Made by a program: the position numbers and the translations under genes
The notes under the pieces: model-generated
Seen by the model: the letters and a program-made list of their open reading frames with translations, nothing else
Told to the model about the DNA's origin: nothing
The model's database searches: none
Virus record (IMG/VR): IMGVR_UViG_3300006735_000226
Coordinates: 1-25,151 of that record
Length of the DNA stretch: 25,151 nt
Reading direction: 5' to 3' (one strand)
From: a virus
Part shown: positions 2,563 through 25,151 of the stretch, in pieces
Numbering within the stretch: the first letter of the stretch is position 1
Layout: each line of letters opens with the position of its first letter

Positions 2563-4065
2563 ATGACTTACTCCGTTCCTGGTCTCGTTAGAACGCATCT
2601 CGTCAGCAGTTCCTACATGGGCACTGTTGATAGTCCGTTCGTGCGAACACGGGCTGTGATCGACCAGATGAAGGGCTGGGAGATCATGAAGGCCGTCACC
2701 AACGGCACGGAGTATTTACGCGAAAACAGCGAAGCATTTTTGCCGCTAGAGCCGCGTGAGGACTACACCGCATACCTGGCACGGGTCAATCGATCAGTTT
2801 TTACGCCTTACACGCAGCGTTTAATTCGAGCTGCTGCTGGCTTAATACTTCGCAAGCCAATTAGCGTAGAAGGCGACCCTTATTGGACAGATGTCTTTAA
2901 TAAGGACGTTGATGGCTGTGGATCGGATTTAGATGAATACGCTCGACGACTCTTAATCTGTGCCCTGACGTATGGGCACTGTCACACGCTGGTTGATTTT
3001 CCTGCGCCTTCGGACGCGAGAAGTCTTGCAGAAGAGCGTGCTCTTAATCGTCGGCCCTATTGGATTGAGGTGGATCCGACCAACGTCTACGGTTGGCGAT
3101 TGGACCGCGAGACCAATTACGGAAACCTTACGCAAGTTCGGATTGGGGAAAAGGCTGTAGTCCCTGACGGCGAGTTTGGAGAAAAGGTCTATGACCAAAT
3201 CCGTGTCATTGAGCCTGGTCGTTATCGCGTCTTCCGGCAAGAAGAGCAGAAGAAAGAGATGCAAGGGAACTTCCCATATCCCTCTTCGTTCGATCAATCC
3301 GACGCTACGGAAGAGTATGAACTGGTTGAGTCTGGTCCTTACTCGCTCGATCAAATCCCCTTGGTAACGATCTACGCGAATAAAACGGACACAATGACCA
3401 GTAAGCCACCGCTACTGGACATTGCTCATCTCAATCTGGCCCACTATCAGCGGCAAGCGGATCTTATCCACAGTCTCCACATCGCTTCGCAACCGATGCT
3501 CGTCCTTGAGGGCTGGGACGACCAAACGAAAGACATGGCTATCAGTGTTAATTACGCGATGGCGACCCAGCCGGGTAACAAGGTCTATTACGTGGAGCCT
3601 GCGGCAAGCGCGTTTGAGGCGCAATCATCGGAGATCCAGGAGTTACAGCAGCAGATGGCGACGTTGGGCATCAGCACGCTGAGCCAACAGAAGTTCGTTG
3701 CTGAATCTGCTGACGCACGCCGTCTGGATCGTATTGACACGAACTCGATGTTGTCGATGGTGTCGATGGATCTGGAGTCAGGTTTGCAGAAGTCTTATGA
3801 CTTGGCGGCCAACTACTTGGGTCTTGAGCCACCCAAGGTGAAGATCAGCCGTGACTTTGACCTGCAACGCCTGATTGGGCAGGATATTGCTGCAATGAGT
3901 CAGCTGTTTGAAGATGAGGTAATCAGCCGTGAGGAGTTCCGCGACATGCTGGTGCAGGGCGAAATCTTGCCAACAGCAGCTGAGCAAAAGCAAGAACCGC
4001 CTAGCGAAGAGGCTTCACCAAACAGCGATCAAATCGACCGTTTAATCAACGCAATGATGCAGTGA
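2563..4065 (+). CDS. Portal protein, DUF4055 type
   Basis: 500 residues, within the usual range for siphovirus portals. The N-terminus ([20 protein letters not shown], then [19 protein letters not shown] and [20 protein letters not shown]) is characteristic of DUF4055 portals. A central [20 protein letters not shown] helix and a Gln-rich helix near residues 360-385 fit the stem/crown region, and the C-terminus is a polar, flexible tail rich in Glu/Gln/Ser. The portal dodecamer forms the DNA channel at one capsid vertex, docking the terminase during packaging and the neck proteins afterwards. It lies upstream of scaffold and capsid in the canonical order. Confidence 0.92.
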
Positions 4066-4069
4066 GGTT

Positions 4070-4960
4070 ATGGCGGACAAAAACAGCCTCACGCTTGCAC
4101 AGATCGCCGCACTGGTAAAACTCGCCAAAAAGGTTGATCAGTTCAACAACCTGTTATCCGGCAACGGCTCGCCAGGGGACATCGGCACCAACGGTGATTG
4201 GTACGTCGATGTTTTAACGAAGCGGCTGTACGGCCCAAAAACTGAAACCGGCTGGGCGGGAGCACCTGTTGCTATTGGCACGGCAGACGAAACAGGCACG
4301 CCACGCTCAACTGCTCCAAGAACTGAAGTTAATGCTGACGGCACACTTGCCGCTGGCTCAGGTGCTACTGGCCCCCAGGGTCCACAAGGTGAGCAAGGAC
4401 CACAAGGTGAGCAGGGGCCTGCTGGTGCAGATGGCGCTGATGGTGCAACAGGTGCCACAGGAGCTACTGGCGCTACAGGCGCAACCGGACCTCAAGGTCC
4501 AGCAGGCGCAGATGGTGCTGACGGAGCAGATGGTGCTACTGGACCTCAGGGACCAACAGGTGCAACTGGAGCTACAGGCGCAACAGGAGCCACGGGTGCA
4601 ACAGGACCAGCTGGCGCTGACGGTGCCGATGGAGCTGATGGTGCAGCTGCAACTATTGCTGTTGGCACGATTACGACTGGGGCTGCTGGCGGTAGTGCAA
4701 GCGTTACTAACAGCGGTACTTCTGCTGCTGCTGTTTTTGACTTCACAATCCCTAGGGGCGCTACGGGTGCTACAGGCGCTCAAGGCCCAGCTGGATCAGA
4801 TGCCTTTGTCGCGGTGGGGACAACCGCTGAGCGTCCAGGCAGTCCTGCAACAGGAGCCATCCGTTACAACACCACAGAAAACAGGTTTGAGGGCTACAAC
4901 GGCAATGAGTGGCTGAACCTCTCGCCAGCAACCATAGATGAGGTTGGCGGCACGGTTTAG
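4070..4960 (+). CDS. Collagen-like protein with Gly-X-Y domain
   Basis: 296 residues; ATG preceded by GAGG at 4064-4067. Residues 1-97 are non-collagenous and include a [12 protein letters not shown] segment of the sort that begins phage fibre modules. Residues 98-193 are 32 uninterrupted Gly-X-Y triplets, mostly GAT, GAD, GPQ. Residues ~195-232 form a short beta module ending FDFTIPRG, followed by a second short Gly-X-Y run, and the C-terminus ([19 protein letters not shown]) resembles C-terminal segments of tail and head fibres. Such proteins trimerise as a triple helix. The place between portal and scaffold suggests a head or neck fibre rather than a tail fibre, which is inference. Confidence 0.85.
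4361..4648 (+). repeat. Gly-X-Y coding repeat (32 triplets)
   Basis: A run of 9-base units encoding 32 consecutive Gly-X-Y triplets. The units are dominated by GGT/GGC-GCN-ACN (GAT) and GGT/GGC-GCN-GAN (GAD), arranged as blocks of GPQ/GEQ, then GAD, then five GAT, and then this GPQ-GAD-GAT order repeats. The recurring block order suggests expansion by slippage or unequal recombination. Synonymous codons vary between units, so the expansion is not recent. Confidence 0.85.
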
Positions 4961-18264: not shown

Positions 18265-20019
18265 ATGGCTACTCACGATTATGTGATTGCTAATGGAACG
18301 GGAGCTGCGGTCCGTTCTGACTTGAATAACGCCCTTGCGGCAATCGTCAGCAACAACAGCGGCAGTTCCGAGCCTGGGACGACCTACGCATATCAATGGT
18401 GGGCAGACACTAACGCCAATGTTCTGAAGATCAGGAACAGCGCGAACGACGCATGGATCACGCTGCGTGAGCTTGACGGCACGATGCTGATTGAGGACGG
18501 CAGTGCCTCAACGCCTGGCCTTGCATTCGCTGACGACGTAAACACTGGCATCTTCAGCCCTGCTGCTGATCAGATTGGTTTTGCGACTGGCGGTGCAGAG
18601 CGCCTTGAGATTGGCAGCTCTGAGGTTGTATTCAATGACCCCAGCAATGATGTTGACTTCCGCGTGGAGTCAAACGGCCAGACTCACATGCTGTTTGTCG
18701 ATGCAGGGAATGATCGCGTTGGCATAGGAACGTCGGCGCCAGCGAGGACATTTGTTGTAAGTGGTGGTTCTAGTGAAGCTGTTGCACAGTTCACAAACGA
18801 TACGAGTGGTGACGGACAAGATGATGGTTTTCAAATTCTTCATTTTACAAGTGGTTTAACTCGACTTTTAAATCGTGAAAATGGACCAATAGCCTTTAGC
18901 ACTAACAACAGCGAGCGAGCACGCATCGATGCAGATGGCAGGCTCCTCGTAGGGGCATCTGATACGACTCACGCCGACGCTAACGCGAAAATACAGGCCA
19001 CTTCTACTGGTGGTACGAGCATTGTTTTGGCCCGTGATGATGCTTCAGTTGTTGCAGGTAATGTTATAGGAAACATCCAATTTTATGGAAATGATGGAGG
19101 CACAAATCAACAATGCGCTGAAATTAGATGTGACGCTGATGGAACCCAGTCAAATAACAACAAGCCATCACGCTTAGTGTTTGGGACCACTGCAGACGAC
19201 GCAAGCAGCGCGACGGAGCGGATGCGTATCGACAGTTCTGGTCGGGTTGGCATAAAAAATTCAAGCCCTAGCTCGCAATACTTCAATGATCTAGTTATTG
19301 GCGACGGCTCTGGTGATCACGGAATTACGTTGCACACCAGCAGCAGCGGCAGTTCTGCTATTGCGTTTTCTGATGCTACATCTGGAGATGGTCGGTACGC
19401 AGGTTATATTCAATATGACCATAGCGATAATACGCTGAAGTTCTACACCAACGGTGGTAATGAGCGGATGAGGGTCAACAGTTTTGGTAACTTTATGGTG
19501 GGCCAAACCAATGGCAGTTCTGGAACTGTAGGCATTGTTTGCAACGCCAATGGCTTGCTTACAAATTGCACATCCAATACAGACGCCTCAGTTATTAACA
19601 TCAATAATCTTACGGGGGCTAAAAATTTAATCTTATTTAGGTCTGATGGAACCAATAGAGGCTCCATTGAAACTAATGGCTCAACTGTTACCTACAACAC
19701 TACCTCTGACTATCGTGTTAAAGAAAACGTTGTTGATATCGATGGTGCGATTGATCGTGTCAAGCAGCTACTGCCTAAACGTTTCAACTTTATTAGTCAC
19801 CCTGAGCGAACTGTTGATGGATTTTTGGCACACGAAGCGCAAACCGTTGTTCCAGAAGCAGTCACTGGAACGCACAACGAAGTCGATGATGACGGCAACG
19901 CTGTAATGCAAGGTATCGATCAATCAAAACTTGTCCCGCTGCTAACTGCAGCATTGCAAGAAGCAATCGCCAAGATCGAAACTCTAGAGACTAAAGTTGC
20001 AGCCCTTGAGGCTGGTTAA
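18265..20019 (+). CDS. Tail fibre with C-terminal S74-type chaperone/protease domain
   Basis: 584 residues. N-terminal ~85 residues likely attach to the tail. Residues 90-470 contain repeated fibre-shaft units (NDRVGIGTSAP, ERARIDADGRLLVG, ERMRIDSSGRVGI, ERMRVNSFGNFMVG). The C-terminal ~105 residues are an intramolecular chaperone domain: TSDYRVKENV with the Ser481/Lys486 pair of peptidase S74, VKQLLPKRFNF, DGFLAHEAQ, and a closing coiled coil (KLVPLLTAALQEAIAKIETL). These domains trimerise fibres and then cleave themselves off at the Ser. The 18750-19700 part is A/T-richer, as expected of a variable receptor-binding region. Confidence 0.9.
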   Translation: MATHDYVIANGTGAAVRSDLNNALAAIVSNNSGSSEPGTTYAYQWWADTNANVLKIRNSANDAWITLRELDGTMLIEDGSASTPGLAFADDVNTGIFSPAADQIGFATGGAERLEIGSSEVVFNDPSNDVDFRVESNGQTHMLFVDAGNDRVGIGTSAPARTFVVSGGSSEAVAQFTNDTSGDGQDDGFQILHFTSGLTRLLNRENGPIAFSTNNSERARIDADGRLLVGASDTTHADANAKIQATSTGGTSIVLARDDASVVAGNVIGNIQFYGNDGGTNQQCAEIRCDADGTQSNNNKPSRLVFGTTADDASSATERMRIDSSGRVGIKNSSPSSQYFNDLVIGDGSGDHGITLHTSSSGSSAIAFSDATSGDGRYAGYIQYDHSDNTLKFYTNGGNERMRVNSFGNFMVGQTNGSSGTVGIVCNANGLLTNCTSNTDASVININNLTGAKNLILFRSDGTNRGSIETNGSTVTYNTTSDYRVKENVVDIDGAIDRVKQLLPKRFNFISHPERTVDGFLAHEAQTVVPEAVTGTHNEVDDDGNAVMQGIDQSKLVPLLTAALQEAIAKIETLETKVAALEAG

Positions 20020-20046
20020 GTAAACTTCTTCTGACTTCACTTCACC

Positions 20047-20379
20047 ATGGCTAACACCTACGTCTGGAAGATCGCTGATCTCAACCGTGACCTCAGCGAC
20101 GGTTTTGCCCACACGGCGCATTACACCGTGACCGCAATCAGCGATCAGGTTGACGCTGAGGGCAATGCCTACAACTCTGGCGCTTACGGCAGCATTGGCC
20201 TTGATCGTCCCAACACGTTGGCTGATTTTGAGGATCTGACTGAGGCTGACATTATGGCTGCTGTGCAGGCCAAGCTTGGTGGCGCTGAAAAGGTCACTGA
20301 GATTCAGGATGCACTTGCTGCACGAATCACTGAGCAGATCAATCCGACGCAGGCATCTGGCAAACCTTCTGGCTGGTGA
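20047..20379 (+). CDS. Small fibre-associated conserved phage protein
   Basis: 110 residues. A predicted beta-rich N-terminal half (TYVWKIADLNRDLSDG, HYTVTAISDQVDAEGNAY) and a helical C-terminal half (FEDLTEADIMAAVQAKLG, EIQDALAARITEQINP) ending PSGW. Proteins of this type recur in phage genomes next to tail fibres, in a place sometimes occupied by fibre assembly chaperones. I recall it as a DUF-class cyanophage protein but cannot name the family safely. Its stop overlaps the following ATG. Confidence 0.7.
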   Translation: MANTYVWKIADLNRDLSDGFAHTAHYTVTAISDQVDAEGNAYNSGAYGSIGLDRPNTLADFEDLTEADIMAAVQAKLGGAEKVTEIQDALAARITEQINPTQASGKPSGW

Positions 20380-20534
20380 TGTCGGCTCATCGGCTGGCTT
20401 GGTGCCTCGGGTTAACAGTCACGTCTTTTGTGATAGTGATCCTGGGGAGCACCAATATCATGTACCGGGCTGGCTATTTACAAGCTCAGCGTGACTTCCC
20501 TGCACAACAGCAATGCAACGCCCTGACCCGATGA
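20379..20534 (+). CDS. Small single-pass membrane protein
   Basis: 51 residues, ATG sharing one base with the preceding TGA and TGA sharing ATGA with the next gene. Residues ~6-29 (LAWCLGLTVTSFVIVILGST) form one transmembrane segment or uncleaved signal; the remainder is polar with one Cys (AQQQCNALT). Coupled starts on both sides support translation. It could be a virion membrane or lysis accessory; nothing more specific can be said. Confidence 0.6.
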   Translation: MSAHRLAWCLGLTVTSFVIVILGSTNIMYRAGYLQAQRDFPAQQQCNALTR

Positions 20535-20704
20535 TCGCCGCTAAGCCTGGTGCGGAGGACGTACAGGCTATGGCGGCTAGAACGCTGTGGCTGGAAGAAT
20601 TGTTCTTCCTTGATGGTCGCGACCAAGTGTCACATCCTCAATATGGTCTGTTCACGGGTTTGGCTCTGAAGTATCAGAACTTGACTTCGACTGACGGTAT
20701 CTGA
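20531..20704 (+). CDS. Small conserved phage protein
   Basis: 57 residues using the ATG in ATGA at 20531; an upstream ATG at 20513 would add six residues but overlap further. Sequence contains AARTLWLEELFFLDGRDQVS and HPQYGLFTGLALKYQNL, an acidic, aromatic-rich helical protein. I recall very similar small proteins near fibre genes in cyanophages; no function is known. Stop overlaps the next ATG by one base. Confidence 0.65.
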   Translation: MIAAKPGAEDVQAMAARTLWLEELFFLDGRDQVSHPQYGLFTGLALKYQNLTSTDGI

Positions 20705-20829
20705 TGGCTAAGTCACTTAGCGGGCAAAATTTTGTCCCTAGCAAGCCGAAAAAGACACGTCAAGGTAATGGATCACATTCAAAACCGTCCCATGGACGGA
20801 AGAAGTATCGTGGCCAAGGAAAACGTTAA
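20704..20829 (+). CDS. Tiny basic protein with TRQGNG / KKYRGQGK motifs
   Basis: 41 residues, start overlapping the previous stop. KKTRQGNGSHSKPSHGRKKY followed by RGQGKR is a pattern I recognise from many cyanophage genomes, where equally tiny proteins end in (K/R)YRGQG(K/R). Highly basic and without hydrophobic residues, so probably disordered and nucleic-acid- or virion-bound. Function unknown. Confidence 0.7.
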   Translation: MAKSLSGQNFVPSKPKKTRQGNGSHSKPSHGRKKYRGQGKR

Positions 20830-20840
20830 TTCTCTTCCAA

Positions 20841-21200
20841 ATGATCAAGCGTCTTGCTTTTGGTGCCATCGCTGGTGCTCTTGCCTTGGCCCCCCTGTCT
20901 GCACGCGCAGACGGCTTTTATCTGAATCCTGAGTGGAACGGTGCCTGGTCAGGTTCTGACTTTGGCGGTGCTGTTCTTGACGGTCACGTTGGCTATGAGT
21001 CAGGCGCCTTCTACATCCAGGGCGGTCCTTCTTGGCTCCAGCCTGATGCAGGTGACACTGAAGTTGGCTTCTCCGCCAAGACCGGTGTTTCTGCCGCTGT
21101 TGCAGAACCTCTGGATGTTTACGGCGAAGTGTCTTACGCCAAGTACAAAGACAGCGATGCTGGTTATGGCCTGAAAGCTGGCATGAAGTACAAATTCTGA
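20841..21200 (+). CDS. Exported small beta-barrel-like (outer membrane type) protein
   Basis: 119 residues. Residues 1-23 are a signal peptide (IKRLAFGAIAGALALAPLSA, cleavage after ARA). The mature ~95 residues consist of alternating amphipathic strands rich in Gly and aromatics (FGGAVLDGHVGYESGAFYIQ, LDVYGEVSYAKYKD) and end in KYKF with a terminal Phe, the outer-membrane insertion signal of beta-barrel proteins. It is short for a complete barrel, about 6 strands. A phage-encoded porin-like protein could alter the host surface or be a virion-related remnant. A terminator follows. Confidence 0.75.
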   Translation: MIKRLAFGAIAGALALAPLSARADGFYLNPEWNGAWSGSDFGGAVLDGHVGYESGAFYIQGGPSWLQPDAGDTEVGFSAKTGVSAAVAEPLDVYGEVSYAKYKDSDAGYGLKAGMKYKF

Positions 21201-21229
21201 GCTAGCTTGAGTCTGCAGAGACGCATACG

Positions 21230-21266
21230 CCCCTTCCTCGCCTCACACGGGAAGGGGTTTTTCTTT
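21230..21266 (+). terminator. Rho-independent terminator
   Basis: Perfect 8-bp stem CCCCTTCC (21230-21237) / GGAAGGGG (21250-21257) with a 12-base loop, followed by TTTTTCTTT. It ends the long plus-strand structural transcript 29 bases after the exported beta-barrel gene. Confidence 0.88.
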
Positions 21267-21276
21267 GACAACCATC

Positions 21277-21507
21277 ATGCAAAAGGTCTTTAACCTGCTC
21301 GGCGCACTGGGCTTTGTTATGTCTGGAACGATGGCTGTGATGGGCGTGGTGGCTTACACTCGCGTTCCATCAATGGTCAAAAATTACGCCAGCAATCTGA
21401 AGCTGGAGTTGACGAAGACGATTCTTGATCAGGTGCCCGTCCCAGAGTTCCCTGAGATGCCAAAGCTGCCAACGGAGACAGGCCCTGCGATCACGTCACC
21501 ATTTTAG
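21277..21507 (+). CDS. Small membrane-anchored protein
   Basis: 76 residues from the ATG at 21277; a TTG at 21265, inside the terminator T run, would add four residues and is less likely. Residues ~5-30 (FNLLGALGFVMSGTMAVMGV and on) are one transmembrane segment; the rest is a polar region ending in a Pro-rich tail (VPEFPEMPKLPTETGP). It resembles small signal-anchored proteins of cyanophages. Its 3' end overlaps the convergent minus-strand gene by 17 bases. Confidence 0.65.
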   Translation: MQKVFNLLGALGFVMSGTMAVMGVVAYTRVPSMVKNYASNLKLELTKTILDQVPVPEFPEMPKLPTETGPAITSPF

Positions 21508-21805
21508 TGTTGGCGGTTGGATCGTCGTCATGAGCTTCAGGCCCGAAGCCTTCAGCCTTGATTTTTGCCATGTCAAGTTCTGGCGCGGGTGCTTGAGGTT
21601 TCTGCTCAAACGACGCCAGCCATTCGCGTAAAGCATCACCAGTTGGTGTGCCTTTTGGCCATTTAACCCACTTGAGAATGGCTTTTGGATCGGTAAATGG
21701 TCTGGCGGATTTGCCGGACAATACGGTGTAAACAACAGGCGGACCTTCACGTCTGCGGTTACGTTCAATCCAAAGTTGACCTGCTGTAAACCGCTCTGAC
21801 TTCAT
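21491..21805 (-). CDS. Hypothetical minus-strand protein
   Basis: 104 residues, single minus-strand gene between plus-strand genes. The body (ERFTAGQLWIERNRRREGPP, VVYTVLSGKSARPFTDPKAI, LKWVKWPKGTPTGDALREWL) has normal protein-like composition with conserved-looking aromatic and charged residues; the C-terminus is acidic and Pro-rich. The two overlapping frames of the same region look poorer. No family recognised with certainty. Its ATG (21803-21805, as CAT) overlaps the ATG of the divergent gene at 21804 by two bases, so each gene's translation signals lie within the other. Confidence 0.6.
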   Translation of the reverse strand: MKSERFTAGQLWIERNRRREGPPVVYTVLSGKSARPFTDPKAILKWVKWPKGTPTGDALREWLASFEQKPQAPAPELDMAKIKAEGFGPEAHDDDPTANTKMVT

Positions 21806-22331
21806 GGAGATCCGAGAGATCGTTGTGCCTGAGATTAACGTGGTTCACGATCTGCCACAGGTTGCAATACCGCAAGCGCCACCAGTCACGTTGGATATTG
21901 GCGTTCCAGTAATCAACTTGCCTCACTTCAACCCAATGGAGATGGAGCCTGAGGTTGAGCCAGAACCTGTAAAGCCTGTCGCTCCAAAGCCTGCAGATCC
22001 CCCACCAGCAACAAAACCACCGCCGATCAAGCTCCCCACAAAAGAACCACCAGCAGCAACAGCACCAGCACCAACAGAGCAACCACCTGTCGAGCCAAAA
22101 CCACTAACTGTTCGCATTATCGAAGCGATTCCGACAATTCCGCAAGCAGTCAATACTGCTGGAACGTCCGCGATTGCGGTGTCAGCAGCCTTGGCAACTC
22201 CATTGCTGCTGAAGGCGATCAGGCCGACGATAAAGAAGTTGGCGAAGAAACTTCAAAAGGTATTGGGTAAAAAGGTCAAGGTAGAAAGCGTCAGGGAGCG
22301 GCGGAAGTTCCAGAGGTCGTTACGGAGATAG
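21804..22331 (+). CDS. Proline-rich membrane protein with basic C-terminus
   Basis: 175 residues. N-terminal ~45 residues are rich in Val/Ile/Pro (VVPEINVVHDLPQVAIPQAP). Residues ~50-105 are a Pro/Glu/Lys/Ala low-complexity spacer (EPVKPVAPKPADPPPATKPP and beyond), like TonB-type or spanin-like extended linkers. Residues ~118-140 (TAGTSAIAVSAALATPLLLK) form a membrane segment, and the last 35 are very basic (IKKLAKKLQKVLGKKVKVES). The layout suggests a protein anchored with a long extended arm. Function unknown. Its 3' end overlaps a convergent minus-strand gene by 41 bases. Confidence 0.7.
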   Translation: MEIREIVVPEINVVHDLPQVAIPQAPPVTLDIGVPVINLPHFNPMEMEPEVEPEPVKPVAPKPADPPPATKPPPIKLPTKEPPAATAPAPTEQPPVEPKPLTVRIIEAIPTIPQAVNTAGTSAIAVSAALATPLLLKAIRPTIKKLAKKLQKVLGKKVKVESVRERRKFQRSLRR

Positions 22332-23088
22332 AATGGGTATGTGGAACGGGCCGGTGAACACGCACGTCACGGCAGACTTTTTCGTAAGGGCTGCCTTTAG
22401 CGAAGCGAATACCCTTCATCATCAGCTCACCGCAGTGCTTTAGTCGGCTGATCTCGAAGTCCAGTCGCTTGTTGGCGAGAAGCTGTTGCTGGATCGCGAG
22501 CTGCGTATCGACTGCCTCTTTACAACGTTGTTGCAGACCTTGGTCTAGCGGGATGGTTGCCTGAATCGACAAGCCCACATTCCAGTTGTGGTTGTCCTTT
22601 TGTCCTGTACGCGTGTCTTTGAAGAACAGCACATCACCTGGATTGTCTAGGCGACCATCGTCATTCAGATCAGAGAGGTCATAGACCGGATCGTCGTAGC
22701 TGTACTCGTAAGGCAAGCCCCATGATTTGGTGCGGTTGAGATATGGCGTGACGGTTAGCGTTGGACCTTGGCACTGAATGTTGCCGCCATAGGTGTTGGT
22801 AATTGCTGAACCTTGCATGATCTGCACCGCCTGATTGCTAACCGATCCAGACGATGTGGCAGTTGGAGATGCGGTTGCAGAAATACCACCAACGTCTTGT
22901 GCGTTGACTGGAGCGGTGGCGATTATTCCGAAAAGGAGGAAACCGTATCGGTAACGCTGGTGATTTCGGTGACGCGCTGAGTGGTTGTGACGTTGGACAA
23001 TCCTGGCCCCTTCAGGCTTTCGACGAACTGAAAGGCTTCTCCAGGTTTGACGATTGACCAGTTTGGTCGTTCTCCTAAGGAGGTCCAT
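22291..23088 (-). CDS. Secreted protein of unknown function; start uncertain
   Basis: 265 residues if read from the ATG at 23088. A signal peptide-like core (YGFLLFGIIATAPVNAQ) ends at about 22900-22970, so the mature protein is ~205 residues: SNQAVQIMQGSAITNTYGGN, a GPTLTVTPYLNR segment, a YDLSDLNDDGRLDNPGD EF-hand-like Asp loop, WNVGLSIQATIPLDQGL, then a helical region with several Cys (QQRCKE, LKHCGEL, KVCRDV). No ATG/GTG/TTG lies between 23088 and the signal core. An ATT at 22999-23001 preceded by GAAGGGG is a possible unusual start, and a -1 shift from the upstream gene is another. It is the last gene of the minus-strand operon. Confidence 0.7.
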   Translation of the reverse strand: MDLLRRTTKLVNRQTWRSLSVRRKPEGARIVQRHNHSARHRNHQRYRYGFLLFGIIATAPVNAQDVGGISATASPTATSSGSVSNQAVQIMQGSAITNTYGGNIQCQGPTLTVTPYLNRTKSWGLPYEYSYDDPVYDLSDLNDDGRLDNPGDVLFFKDTRTGQKDNHNWNVGLSIQATIPLDQGLQQRCKEAVDTQLAIQQQLLANKRLDFEISRLKHCGELMMKGIRFAKGSPYEKVCRDVRVHRPVPHTHSISVTTSGTSAAP

Positions 23089-23318
23089 CCGTTGACCGTT
23101 GTGTTGGAGACGGGATTGATTGGTCCGTCTGGTGTGATATTTACACCGCTAGCACTGTATTCAAACCCCGTTGAATAGTTCTCACTGACAATCGTTTCAG
23201 TGACCTTGCTGGTTGTTTCTGTGTGGGACGACATCGTGCCCTGCGTGAAGTTGGGGATCACAGGGACAGCGTGAGCTGCTGGAGCGGATAGCAACAACAG
23301 CAGAAGCCAACGCATCAC
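22923..23318 (-). CDS. Secreted protein B of minus-strand cassette
   Basis: 131 residues with a clear signal peptide (MRWLLLLLLSAPAAHA, then VPVIPNFTQG). The mature part is Ser/Thr/Val-rich and beta-like (TETTSKVTETIVSENYSTGF, SASGVNITPDG, KPGEAFQFVESL, QRVTEITSV). The motifs S-x-SG-x-NI, PG-[DE]-AF-x-F and Q-x-VTEIT also occur in the same order in the adjacent gene at 23315, so the two look like diverged paralogues. ATG overlaps the upstream stop (ATGA). I recall similar proteins in cyanophages; function unknown. Confidence 0.75.
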   Translation of the reverse strand: MMRWLLLLLLSAPAAHAVPVIPNFTQGTMSSHTETTSKVTETIVSENYSTGFEYSASGVNITPDGPINPVSNTTVNGWTSLGERPNWSIVKPGEAFQFVESLKGPGLSNVTTTQRVTEITSVTDTVSSFSE

Positions 23319-23806
23319 TTAATCGTGATTTCGGTCACGAGCTGACCTACAGCCAGCGTGTTTGCTCCACCACCTGTGATGGTCATGCCACCGTCAGAGG
23401 AGATAGTTCCTGCCAAATCACCTGCAGTGCCTGAAGCTGTAGAGGTAAGGCTGCCAAAGTTGCCAACAGCGCCAGTGGTAACGGCTGACGTTGGAACGGC
23501 ATCAGCTTGGCGATAGGTCTGGCTAAAGGAGAACGCATCACCTGGAACGTCTTGCGTTGCAGAGATTGTGCCGGGTGCGTAGACACCGCTGGTGATCGTG
23601 CCAGCAGAGACGGTGTTGGCAGTGGTTCCGTCAGTTGTATCGATGTTGGTGCCAGAGATGCTGAATGAAGAGCCAATACGCTCTGCAGTGGTTACAGCAC
23701 CACCAACCTGCAGCTGAACCGACGACATGATCTTGTGTTGGAGATCAGCGCGGGCGGGCAATCCAGCTGCCAATGTGATGCCCAATACCAAAAGTGTCCG
23801 GGTCAT
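23315..23806 (-). CDS. Secreted protein A of minus-strand cassette
   Basis: 163 residues; signal peptide MTRTLLVLGITLAAGLPARA followed by DLQHKIMSSVQLQVGGAV. The mature protein is a Gly/Ser/Thr-rich, strand-like sequence (FSISGTNIDTTDGTTANT, PGDAFSFSQTYRQADAVP) ending QLVTEITIK. Composition resembles adhesins or surface-layer-like beta proteins, without cysteines. Start overlaps the stop of the holin-like gene (ATGA). Exported to periplasm or beyond; no assigned function. Confidence 0.75.
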   Translation of the reverse strand: MTRTLLVLGITLAAGLPARADLQHKIMSSVQLQVGGAVTTAERIGSSFSISGTNIDTTDGTTANTVSAGTITSGVYAPGTISATQDVPGDAFSFSQTYRQADAVPTSAVTTGAVGNFGSLTSTASGTAGDLAGTISSDGGMTITGGGANTLAVGQLVTEITIK

Positions 23807-24069
23807 TTGATGCCGACTTTGGTGTCTTTGTTGTCAACAATAGTCGGCTTCTTGTTTCCACCGCCATTGGACTTACGTTCGATGCCAAATGACGCCATCG
23901 CGCCAGTGAGCAGCGATGCAACAAAGGTGTTGTCCATTTTCATCTGGGGGAACAAGCCCAGGTAGGAGACGGTGAGCAGAGTGGCGCTCCAAAGCAAGAC
24001 AGCGCATTTAACGAGGTCGGCAACGCCAACGCCTTCTTTTTCGTGCTGCTCTTCGGGGTTGTTGGCCAT
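23803..24069 (-). CDS. Holin-like small membrane protein
   Basis: 88 residues, first gene of the minus-strand operon. Charged N-terminus (NPEEQHEKEG), a first hydrophobic helix (VKCAVLLWSATLLTVSYLGL), a short polar turn, a second weaker hydrophobic helix (FVASLLTGAMASFGI), then a basic tail. Two helices with short charged ends and proximity to the endolysin gene fit a small holin or holin-like protein; the opposite strand and coupling to secreted proteins leave room for a different membrane role. Confidence 0.65.
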   Translation of the reverse strand: MANNPEEQHEKEGVGVADLVKCAVLLWSATLLTVSYLGLFPQMKMDNTFVASLLTGAMASFGIERKSNGGGNKKPTIVDNKDTKVGIK

Positions 24070-24086
24070 GACGCAACAGAGCTACC

Positions 24087-24099
24087 GTTACAGCGTAAC
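24087..24099. promoter_or_regulatory. Palindrome in divergent intergenic region
   Basis: GTTAC-agc-GTAAC lies in the 42-base gap between the divergent minus-strand operon (start 24069) and the plus-strand lysis genes (start 24112). A symmetric 13-base site between two divergent transcripts is a plausible operator for joint control. No convincing -35/-10 pair is visible on either side. Confidence 0.4.
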
Positions 24100-24111
24100 T
24101 AGGTCAATCCA

Positions 24112-24285
24112 ATGCTTCTAGTTCTTAAGCCTCTGGTCATGACGATGTGGCGCTCCAGGGCGTTCAAAGAGTTGATCATTGCGATGTTGGAGCGGATCGT
24201 GACTCGCACTGACAACGATTTGGATGATCTGGCTGTAAAGCATTTGAAGGATTTGCTTTTGCCTGACACTCGTGTTGAGAAGTGA
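24112..24285 (+). CDS. Small amphipathic protein of the lysis region
   Basis: 57 residues: a hydrophobic N-terminus (LLVLKPLVMTMWRSRAFKEL), a helical middle, and an acidic/Leu-rich end (TDNDLDDLAVKHLKDLLLP). Similar small proteins precede the endolysin in phages of cyanobacteria as I recall. Its stop overlaps the GTG of the next small gene (GTGA). Function unknown. Confidence 0.6.
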   Translation: MLLVLKPLVMTMWRSRAFKELIIAMLERIVTRTDNDLDDLAVKHLKDLLLPDTRVEK

Positions 24286-24428
24286 AGCTATCCGCGTTTT
24301 CCGCAACTGGCTGGTTTATTGCAGGCAGCGCGGTCACGCTGTTGCTCTGCACCACAATGGTTGTTTTCATCGCTGGATACAGCTCTGGCACAGCCACTTG
24401 CGATCAAGCAAGATCAGGCCAGCTTTAG
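24282..24428 (+). CDS. Small single-pass membrane protein of the lysis region
   Basis: 48 residues from GTG, overlapping the upstream stop by four bases. Residues ~10-33 (GWFIAGSAVTLLLCTTMVVF) form a transmembrane segment; the C-terminal ~15 residues are polar with one Cys (ATCDQARSG). Placement just before the endolysin suggests a holin, antiholin or anchor role; this is inference from position and topology. Confidence 0.55.
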   Translation: MKLSAFSATGWFIAGSAVTLLLCTTMVVFIAGYSSGTATCDQARSGQL

Positions 24429-25144
24429 CTGTAACCGGTGTGTTGAGCCTGCTGCCGTTCTTCGAGTTCTTCCGTGGTACGCCCCACCAGCTGGCTGCGA
24501 TTAAACAACTTGAGGAGTCAATGCCAGCTGAACTACTGGAGGAGCACGAAGCTGATTGGTTTCAGGCATGGAAGGAGAGTGGATATGACCAGCAGATCTT
24601 CATGCCGTACTTCAAGCAGCTCGATAACGAGACTGGAACGGGATACCGCGAGTGCTTCAGTTCAGCAGCTGCGATGGTGGCAGCGTTTTACAAGAAGGTT
24701 CGTACGGATGATGAGTACAACAGGATCCGCGCCAAATATGGGGACACCACATCGGTAGAGGCTCAGCTAGCCGCGTTACGCAGTCTTGGCTTGGAAGCTG
24801 AGTTCAGAAAGGACGCCGACGCCGACATGGTGGAACTTGAGATTGAGGCTGGCCGTCCGGTTTTGGCTGGATATTTGTCTGCAGGCAATATGCTTCGTGG
24901 CGAACCACCAATGTGCAACGGCTTAGGTTGCGGACACTGGCTGGTCATTAGCGGGTTCGCAGGGAAGAACAGCAACGACCCGGAATGGATCGTCCAAGAC
25001 CCGCGTGGCTACCCCGAAATGGAGAAGGGTGGTCACAGCAACCCGCATTTGGGACGTAACGTCCGTGTGAGGCAGGCAGCGTTTTACCAGCGTTGGCAGG
25101 CTGAAGGCCCTGGAACTGGTTGGGTGATTTTGGTGAACGAGTGA
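24398..25144 (+). CDS. Endolysin-like C39-family cysteine peptidase with N-terminal signal-anchor
   Basis: 248 residues from a TTG at 24398; a GTG at 24440 is another possible start. Residues 1-25 (basic start, then LAVTGVLSLLPFFEFF) form a signal or signal-anchor-release segment. The peptidase domain has Gln74 in PYFKQLDN, Cys86 in GYRECFSSAAAM, His180 in CGHWLVISGF and Asp201 in VQDPRGYP, the order Gln-Cys-His-Asp of papain-like C39 enzymes. C173 and C178 flank the catalytic loop and might form a disulfide. It probably cleaves peptidoglycan peptides. An open frame extends upstream to 24272, but those residues look like shadow sequence. Confidence 0.8.
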   Translation: MRSSKIRPALAVTGVLSLLPFFEFFRGTPHQLAAIKQLEESMPAELLEEHEADWFQAWKESGYDQQIFMPYFKQLDNETGTGYRECFSSAAAMVAAFYKKVRTDDEYNRIRAKYGDTTSVEAQLAALRSLGLEAEFRKDADADMVELEIEAGRPVLAGYLSAGNMLRGEPPMCNGLGCGHWLVISGFAGKNSNDPEWIVQDPRGYPEMEKGGHSNPHLGRNVRVRQAAFYQRWQAEGPGTGWVILVNE

Positions 25145-25151
25145 GTTCTCA

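Follow-up and report, generated by a model that had tools for sequence, protein, structure and literature searches.

The closest described relative of the locus treated here is a gene cluster of cyanomyophages. T4-GCs 218, 219, 234, 235 and 237 occur in 15 of 16 cyanomyophages, all but S-PM2, often together with a 'plasmid stability' gene, and were interpreted as a probably functional, mobile cassette of unknown function (Sullivan et al. 2010, PMC3037559). In the records of Syn19 and S-SM1, from which the T4-GC labels used below were taken, OMP1 > DUF6322 > GC235 face P570 < P605 < P568 < DUF6450, and Syn9 is arranged alike. Members of these families are also found in the window, that is, the whole stretch of 25,151 nucleotides (nt) analysed here (IMG/VR virus record IMGVR_UViG_3300006735_000226, positions 1 to 25,151; a 25 kb record, apparently a fragment). 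There, four coupled minus-strand genes at 22291-24069, to which an earlier note had drawn attention, make up one half of a set of exported and membrane proteins that is conserved in many unrelated viruses of oceanic Synechococcus and Prochlorococcus; they face plus-strand genes at 20841, 21265 and 21804, so that the whole forms a convergent module. We tentatively favour, with somewhat less than even confidence, the view that this module is a late set for egress and outer-membrane disruption that takes the place of canonical spanins. The genes keep a conserved order, are under purifying selection, carry export or membrane segments, have T4-like late promoters in T4-like phages, and co-occur as a core in phages of several virion types. 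What is added to the 2010 description is the same gene order in two siphovirus lineages, its reduced form in T7-like podoviruses, its presence in S-TIM5, the co-inheritance of the core and the late promoters.

Spanins are the other point of comparison. No identifiable spanin was found in 20 phages of Prochlorococcus or Synechococcus hosts, a list that includes P-SSP7, Syn9, Syn19, P-SSM2/4/7, S-SM1, S-SM2, S-PM2, Syn5, P-SS2 and S-CBS4 (Kongari et al. 2018, PMC6139136). These authors considered either a fragile host outer membrane or spanin topologies not yet known, and saw a possible spanin subunit in a type I inner-membrane protein whose transmembrane segment is C-terminal, or in an outer-membrane protein. 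Prochlorococcus and Synechococcus are the sea's most abundant photosynthetic cells, and a late, exported, co-inherited module common to several virion types is a concrete candidate for the means by which their phages breach the outer membrane.

The genes of the module and those next to it are listed here (aa, amino acids; ORF, open reading frame).

23803-24069, minus strand: DUF6450 (T4-GC218 family), two-helix membrane protein, 88 aa, core gene (PF20048, E 1e-15; phrog_21865/721/2714; 458 cyanophage records)
23315-23806, minus strand: OMP1 (T4-GC237), exported Ser/Thr-rich all-beta protein, 163 aa (phrog_564, E 4e-59; 411 phage records, several labelled 'OMP1 protein')
22923-23318, minus strand: DUF6322 (T4-GC236), exported Ser/Thr-rich beta protein, 131 aa, core gene (PF19847, E 5e-28; phrog_650)
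22291-23088, minus strand: T4-GC235, exported protein with beta strands and a long helix, 265 aa from the ATG, core gene (phrog_848, E 1e-104; 438 phage records)
21804-22331, plus strand: P570 (T4-GC234), Pro-rich protein with a C-terminal hydrophobic segment, core gene (phrog_570, E 3e-18; family alignment)
21491-21805, minus strand: accessory 104-aa ORF between P568 and P570 (phrog_37139, E 3e-18; 53 of 80 siphovirus A loci)
21265-21507, plus strand: P568 (T4-GC414), 80-aa protein with one transmembrane segment (phrog_568, E 8e-8; hydropathy peak at residue 14)
20841-21200, plus strand: Phage_OMP, exported small outer-membrane beta-barrel (PF24653, E 9e-29; 57 of 80 close loci)
24272-25144, plus strand: endolysin-like gene, Peptidase C39-like, divergent from the cassette (phrog_10051 endolysin, E 7e-55; PF13529)
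18265-20019, plus strand: tail fibre gene, which by gene order bounds the module on its other side and is no part of it

The first three minus-strand ORFs overlap by 4 nt each, DUF6322 and GC235 by 166 nt. The window itself belongs to a siphovirus, as portal, scaffold, major head, connector, tape-measure, minor tail and J-like tail genes show, and the nearest cultured relatives of its head protein are the cyanosiphophages S-2L, KBS-S-2A and MED4-184. Like the cyanomyophage cluster, it carries homologues of GC235, 236 and 237 in one operon and in the same order (phrog_848, 650, 564), a convergent partner operon with T4-GC234 (phrog_570) and the 'plasmid stability' gene (phrog_568), and T4-GC218, whose Syn19 member shares phrog_2714/721/21865. 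It differs in that DUF6450 heads the operon of exported proteins and not the other one, and in the addition of the Phage_OMP beta-barrel and the divergent endolysin-like gene. The beta-barrel is a clear member of PF24653; however, no lineage but that of the window has this family next to the module, and in some T4-like phages it lies elsewhere or just outside. T4-GC219 (phrog_605) is missing from the window and gave no match in siphovirus A or B loci, as against 52 of 80 myovirus loci, so that the window holds a variant arrangement rather than a full copy of the cluster.

The families were mapped with iterated profiles in the 80 best loci per query, one set covering the window's lineage (siphovirus A) and the others relatives of Syn9 (myoviruses), P-SSP7 (podoviruses) and MED4-184 (siphovirus B) proteins; the virion type of metagenomic loci was inferred from closeness to these three phages, and counts per lineage are not frequencies. 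Within each group of 80 loci (two of siphoviruses, one of myoviruses and one of podoviruses) gene order is fixed. It reads LYS< DUF6450> OMP1> DUF6322> GC235> P570< (P37139>) P568< OMPb< fibre< in siphovirus A, DUF6450> OMP1> DUF6322> GC235> P570< P568< fibre< in siphovirus B, and OMP1> DUF6322> GC235> P570< (P605<) P568< DUF6450< in myoviruses. Podoviruses have a reduced version, (fibre>) DUF6450> DUF6322> GC235>, in which OMP1 was not found and which, in P-SSP7, P-SSP2 and S-RIP1, is preceded by a short P570-like gene. In a set of 14 whole phage genomes of our own choice, the four core families occur together in eight (S-TIM5, P-SSP7, MED4-184, P-SSP2, S-RIP1, Syn9, Syn19 and P-SSM7) and are jointly absent from six (S-PM2, KBS-S-2A, Syn5, P-SS2, S-CBS4 and Pf-WMP4). 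In S-TIM5, an unrelated myovirus, DUF6450 stands apart from the rest. Phage records with a match number 438 for GC235 and 411 for OMP1; all of them are of cyanophage or marine origin.

The claims of the earlier note can be judged against this map. The four ORFs are present at 22291-24069, and their grouping with the beta-barrel at 20841 and the Pro-rich membrane protein at 21804 is borne out by common occurrence in relatives. Co-occurrence, proposed there as a check, was indeed found, both among the loci and among the 14 genomes. The set is larger than first reported, and the remark that it had not been described does not hold, given Sullivan et al. (2010, PMC3037559) and the existing PHROG and Pfam DUF entries.

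In the GC235 and DUF6322 trees, the window's lineage groups with the myoviruses (support 0.91 and 0.97), apart from the other siphovirus lineage, which makes an exchange of the exported genes between virion types probable. The DUF6450 tree departs from this grouping. Such exchange would also suit a selfish cassette that is moved by its 'plasmid stability' gene and has no role in egress, and the cluster was named mobile by Sullivan et al. (2010, PMC3037559). This explanation nevertheless appears highly improbable. The label of P568 is inherited and is unsupported by the make-up of an 80-aa protein with one transmembrane segment; the ratio of non-synonymous to synonymous substitution rates (dN/dS) is 0.05-0.3; and order and convergence are kept across lineages, which argues for functional linkage rather than drift. 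More probably, the genes entered in 2010 as 'mobile' and accompanied by a 'plasmid stability' gene make up an envelope machine.

Every module gene tested is under purifying selection (median dN/dS 0.05-0.30). Medians of 0.05-0.17 for the minus-strand genes (40 relatives each) indicate that these ORFs are real, selected genes. Topology was called from hydropathy and charge. By hydropathy, DUF6450 has two hydrophobic segments, starting at residues 24 and 48; OMP1 and DUF6322 each have an N-terminal one, starting at residues 4 and 5; and the 265-aa ORF of GC235 has a single one, at residue 50. In the exported proteins an A-x-A motif closes the hydrophobic segment and the conserved mature part follows directly (PARA/DLQ, AHA/VPV, VNA/QDV, the slash marking the junction). 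Serine and threonine make up 27.6% and 27.5% of the two smaller exported proteins and 15.5% of GC235. AlphaFold models, of low to middling confidence, are all-beta for OMP1 (predicted local distance difference test, pLDDT, 72.7) and consist of beta strands and one 43-residue helix for GC235 (residues 117-159 of the mature part, pLDDT 65). Hydropathy, A-x-A motifs, Ser/Thr content and models thus uphold the earlier description of a two-helix membrane protein with three exported beta-rich proteins, and the exported or envelope-targeted nature of the module. OMP1 is probably a diverged paralogue of DUF6322, judging from an hhalign probability of 73.5% and from cross-matches in the family searches. 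Cysteines C40, C123, C153 and C173 of GC235 are invariant, which makes the protein compatible with an oxidising periplasm. P570 contains 19% proline and ends in a strongly basic tail (+15 in the last 40 aa).

These features bear on the possibility that the proteins are accessories of the virion or of tail assembly, for instance tail-tip or fibre partners, and that the signal-like segments are hydrophobic regions of virion proteins. Tail fibre genes do adjoin the module in sipho- and podoviruses, and T4-type late promoters drive structural genes too. However, the signal peptides are clean, with the conserved mature part next to the A-x-A, and the fact that sipho-, myo- and podoviruses all have this set speaks against proteins tailored to a particular virion. 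The virion proteome of S-TIM5 has reportedly been made, and the GenBank records of S-SM1 and S-TIM5 come from groups that did virion proteomics. As far as annotation goes, these records label the module genes hypothetical or 'plasmid stability' and their neighbours 'virion structural', which is indirect evidence against a place in the virion. On the other side, 45 virion proteins are reported for S-SCSM1, and the text of that paper does not name the unknown ones among them. Overall, a virion role is very unlikely.

The timing of expression can be approached through promoters. Of the 55 distinct cases that the myovirus loci provide for each gene, 22 have the T4-type late motif NATAAATA 12-47 nt upstream of OMP1 and 30 have it at this distance upstream of DUF6450, where most copies stand at -29 to -31. 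Among 1938 other ORF starts of these loci, 46 (2.4%) carry the motif, as do 0.3% of random windows, and operon-internal control genes yield 0-1. The myovirus sequences are related, so that binomial values do not represent independent tests; the effect is large. The motif is absent upstream of DUF6450 in siphovirus A, and absent at promoter distance in siphovirus B, as expected of non-T4 phages. In P-SSP7, P-SSP2 and S-RIP1, the core sits between the tail fibre and small terminase genes. The corresponding block of T7 is late and includes holin 17.5 and spanins 18.5/18.7. Taken together, the late motifs and the podovirus position make a late role of the module likely.

Lateness is a difficulty for superinfection blocking, which had been suggested by the earlier note. 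The exported proteins would then coat or block outer-membrane receptors and keep infected cells and debris from re-adsorbing phages, the phage's own progeny included. Export, an outer-membrane-like character and the adjoining tail fibre genes of sipho- and podoviruses are in keeping with this, as is the presence of the module in some, not all, phages of one host, which would befit an accessory competitive trait. Superinfection exclusion is usually early, however, and late promoters in T4-like relatives disfavour it. Moreover, several inner-membrane and periplasmic partners would be superfluous for a blocker, the module is kept across phages with unrelated fibres, and PADLOC returned no match. 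Receptor blocking is accordingly unlikely, and the other branch of the earlier suggestion, an aid to adsorption or lysis, is the better working hypothesis.

Several exported beta proteins and a small beta-barrel could also serve late remodelling or protection of the envelope, delaying lysis, stabilising the outer membrane or taking up nutrients with no breakage. The presence of pstS, phoA and hsp20 near the module in T4-like phages points in this direction. The records of MED4-184 and P-SSP2 show no such metabolic neighbours next to it, and late timing fits uptake poorly; this alternative seems quite unlikely.

The egress interpretation draws on the fixed gene order, the late promoters, the co-occurrence of the core, the non-virion annotation in S-SM1 and S-TIM5, its position between tail fibre and terminase in podoviruses, the divergent endolysin-like gene and the spanin-less state of carrier phages. 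The combination of a protein with a C-terminal transmembrane segment and an outer-membrane protein matches the alternative spanin proposed by Kongari et al. (2018), and only cyanophage records are matched by the module proteins, matches in host genomes being taken for phage DNA. In the proposed scheme, DUF6450 would act in the inner membrane in the manner of a holin or pinholin. P570, anchored at its C-terminus with the basic tail in the cytoplasm (an orientation taken from charge only), would extend into the periplasm, while DUF6322, OMP1, GC235 and the small beta-barrel at 20841 would assemble in the periplasm or outer membrane. Once the neighbouring endolysin has cut the peptidoglycan, these proteins together might breach or fuse the outer membrane, and the job of a spanin would be done without a lipoprotein. 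A stronger version holds that a lipoprotein-free, late trans-envelope machine, shared through exchange by marine picocyanophages of several unrelated virion types and made of an inner-membrane hairpin (DUF6450), a C-terminally anchored Pro-rich strut (P570) and the exported beta proteins, disrupts the cyanobacterial outer membrane; this we regard as possible but doubtful. If true, it would join two-component and unimolecular spanins as a third way through that membrane.

Like the spanins (lambda Rz/Rz1, T7 18.5/18.7, T1 gp11), the module comprises late envelope genes near an endolysin or the small terminase, with overlapping out-of-frame exported genes and a proposed role at the outer membrane. 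Unlike them, it has no lipobox, no sequence similarity to spanins, more components and beta-rich exported proteins, and equivalence is a hypothesis. An N-terminally anchored subunit with a periplasmic coiled coil is not to be seen in the two candidates, since P568 has only about 50 further residues, proline among them, and P570 is anchored C-terminally. DUF6450 resembles the class II holins and pinholins (phage 21 S, T7 17.5) in its small size (88 aa) and two hydrophobic segments, and its charge pattern, taken alone, is compatible with an N-in/C-in orientation. In the window's lineage it adjoins an endolysin-like gene that is divergent from the cassette in 59 of 80 loci and whose N-terminus in relatives is hydrophobic, resembling a signal-arrest-release (SAR) sequence or signal anchor (...GIIQVTLLLLAMGLALLPFF). 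In contrast to those holins, DUF6450 matches no holin family in PHROG or Pfam, and its T4-like copies lie far from a known endolysin.

A number of observations weigh against an egress function. S-PM2, Syn5, P-SS2 and S-CBS4 lack the module and are also spanin-less; the module is therefore not needed to lyse every picocyanobacterium, and a lack of spanins is no distinguishing mark of its carriers. No known endolysin stands beside it in T4-like phages. No spanin-like sequence was found among the module proteins, and in the exported sequences shown no lipobox cysteine follows the cleavage motifs, the residue being D, V, Q, E or similar instead. No known fold matches the models significantly: the lowest Foldseek E values are 0.4 and 2.4, and the highest VIA Z, 4.0, concerns the helix only. 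Matches resembling beta-pores fell short of significance and carry no weight here. Finally, the membrane orientation of P570 comes from charge only, and the egress role itself is a prediction.

The start of GC235 calls for separate comment. It overlaps DUF6322 by 166 nt (22923-23088), invariably in the -1 frame, in all four phage lineages, and the hydrophobic segment of GC235 is encoded across the DUF6322 stop codon. With the annotated ATG, the n-region is basic and unusually long. Where translation really begins is uncertain: in the overlap, the second frame shows no clear excess of constraint over the rest, and some podovirus homologues have a closer ATG. dN/dS is 0.067 for DUF6322 and 0.046 for GC235 outside the overlap. 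Wobble diversity is about equal inside and outside the overlap (lower in podoviruses, where sites are few), which suggests that the long n-region is probably unimportant. The constant -1 frame and the lack of a near canonical start in most sequences raised the idea of a programmed frameshift from DUF6322 into GC235. It is unsupported: start-like NTG codons lie within DUF6322 and some podoviruses have closer ATGs (a slippery site was not searched for).

A host origin of the module was considered by scanning 84,980 bacterial and archaeal species genomes. The only matches were in metagenome bins, single cells and one phage-size isolate contig; we infer that these represent misbinned, infecting or co-purified phage DNA, with no convincing chromosomal homologue among them. 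Cyanophage-like matches in public bacterial and archaeal assemblies include Sphingobacteriales and Euryarchaeota bins and a 188 kb contig of Nonlabens xiamenensis. Matches of this kind probably stem from contaminating phage DNA or from phage genomes that were co-purified.

Searches of 20000-25151 gave no Rfam match and no sigma-70-like site, and PADLOC and NCBIfam no useful match. Some minor features of the window may be added. Among the loci mapped, the 104-aa ORF at 21491-21805 (phrog_37139) is insertion-like and confined to the window's siphovirus lineage. The endolysin-like gene has an annotated GTG start that gives it a different, longer N-terminus than its relatives, and a 48-aa ORF with one transmembrane segment (24282-24428) overlaps it in another frame. 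Directly before the beta-barrel gene lies a very basic 41-aa ORF (20704-20829, MAKSLSGQNFVPSKPKKTRQGNG...), kept in 43 close loci. A repeat-rich collagen-like or tail-fibre gene (4070-4960) sits oddly between the portal and scaffold genes. The C-terminus of the tail fibre at 18265-20019 (YRVKENVVDIDGAIDRVKQLLPKRFNF...) resembles, by eye, a self-cleaving S74-type chaperone domain. Both siphovirus lineages have a DUF7936/phrog_7802 gene between tail fibre and module (20047-20379 in the window, 2687-3022 in locus L087), and phrog_9114 follows the fibre in both MED4-184 and P-SSP7; the region after the fibre thus appears mosaic across virion types.

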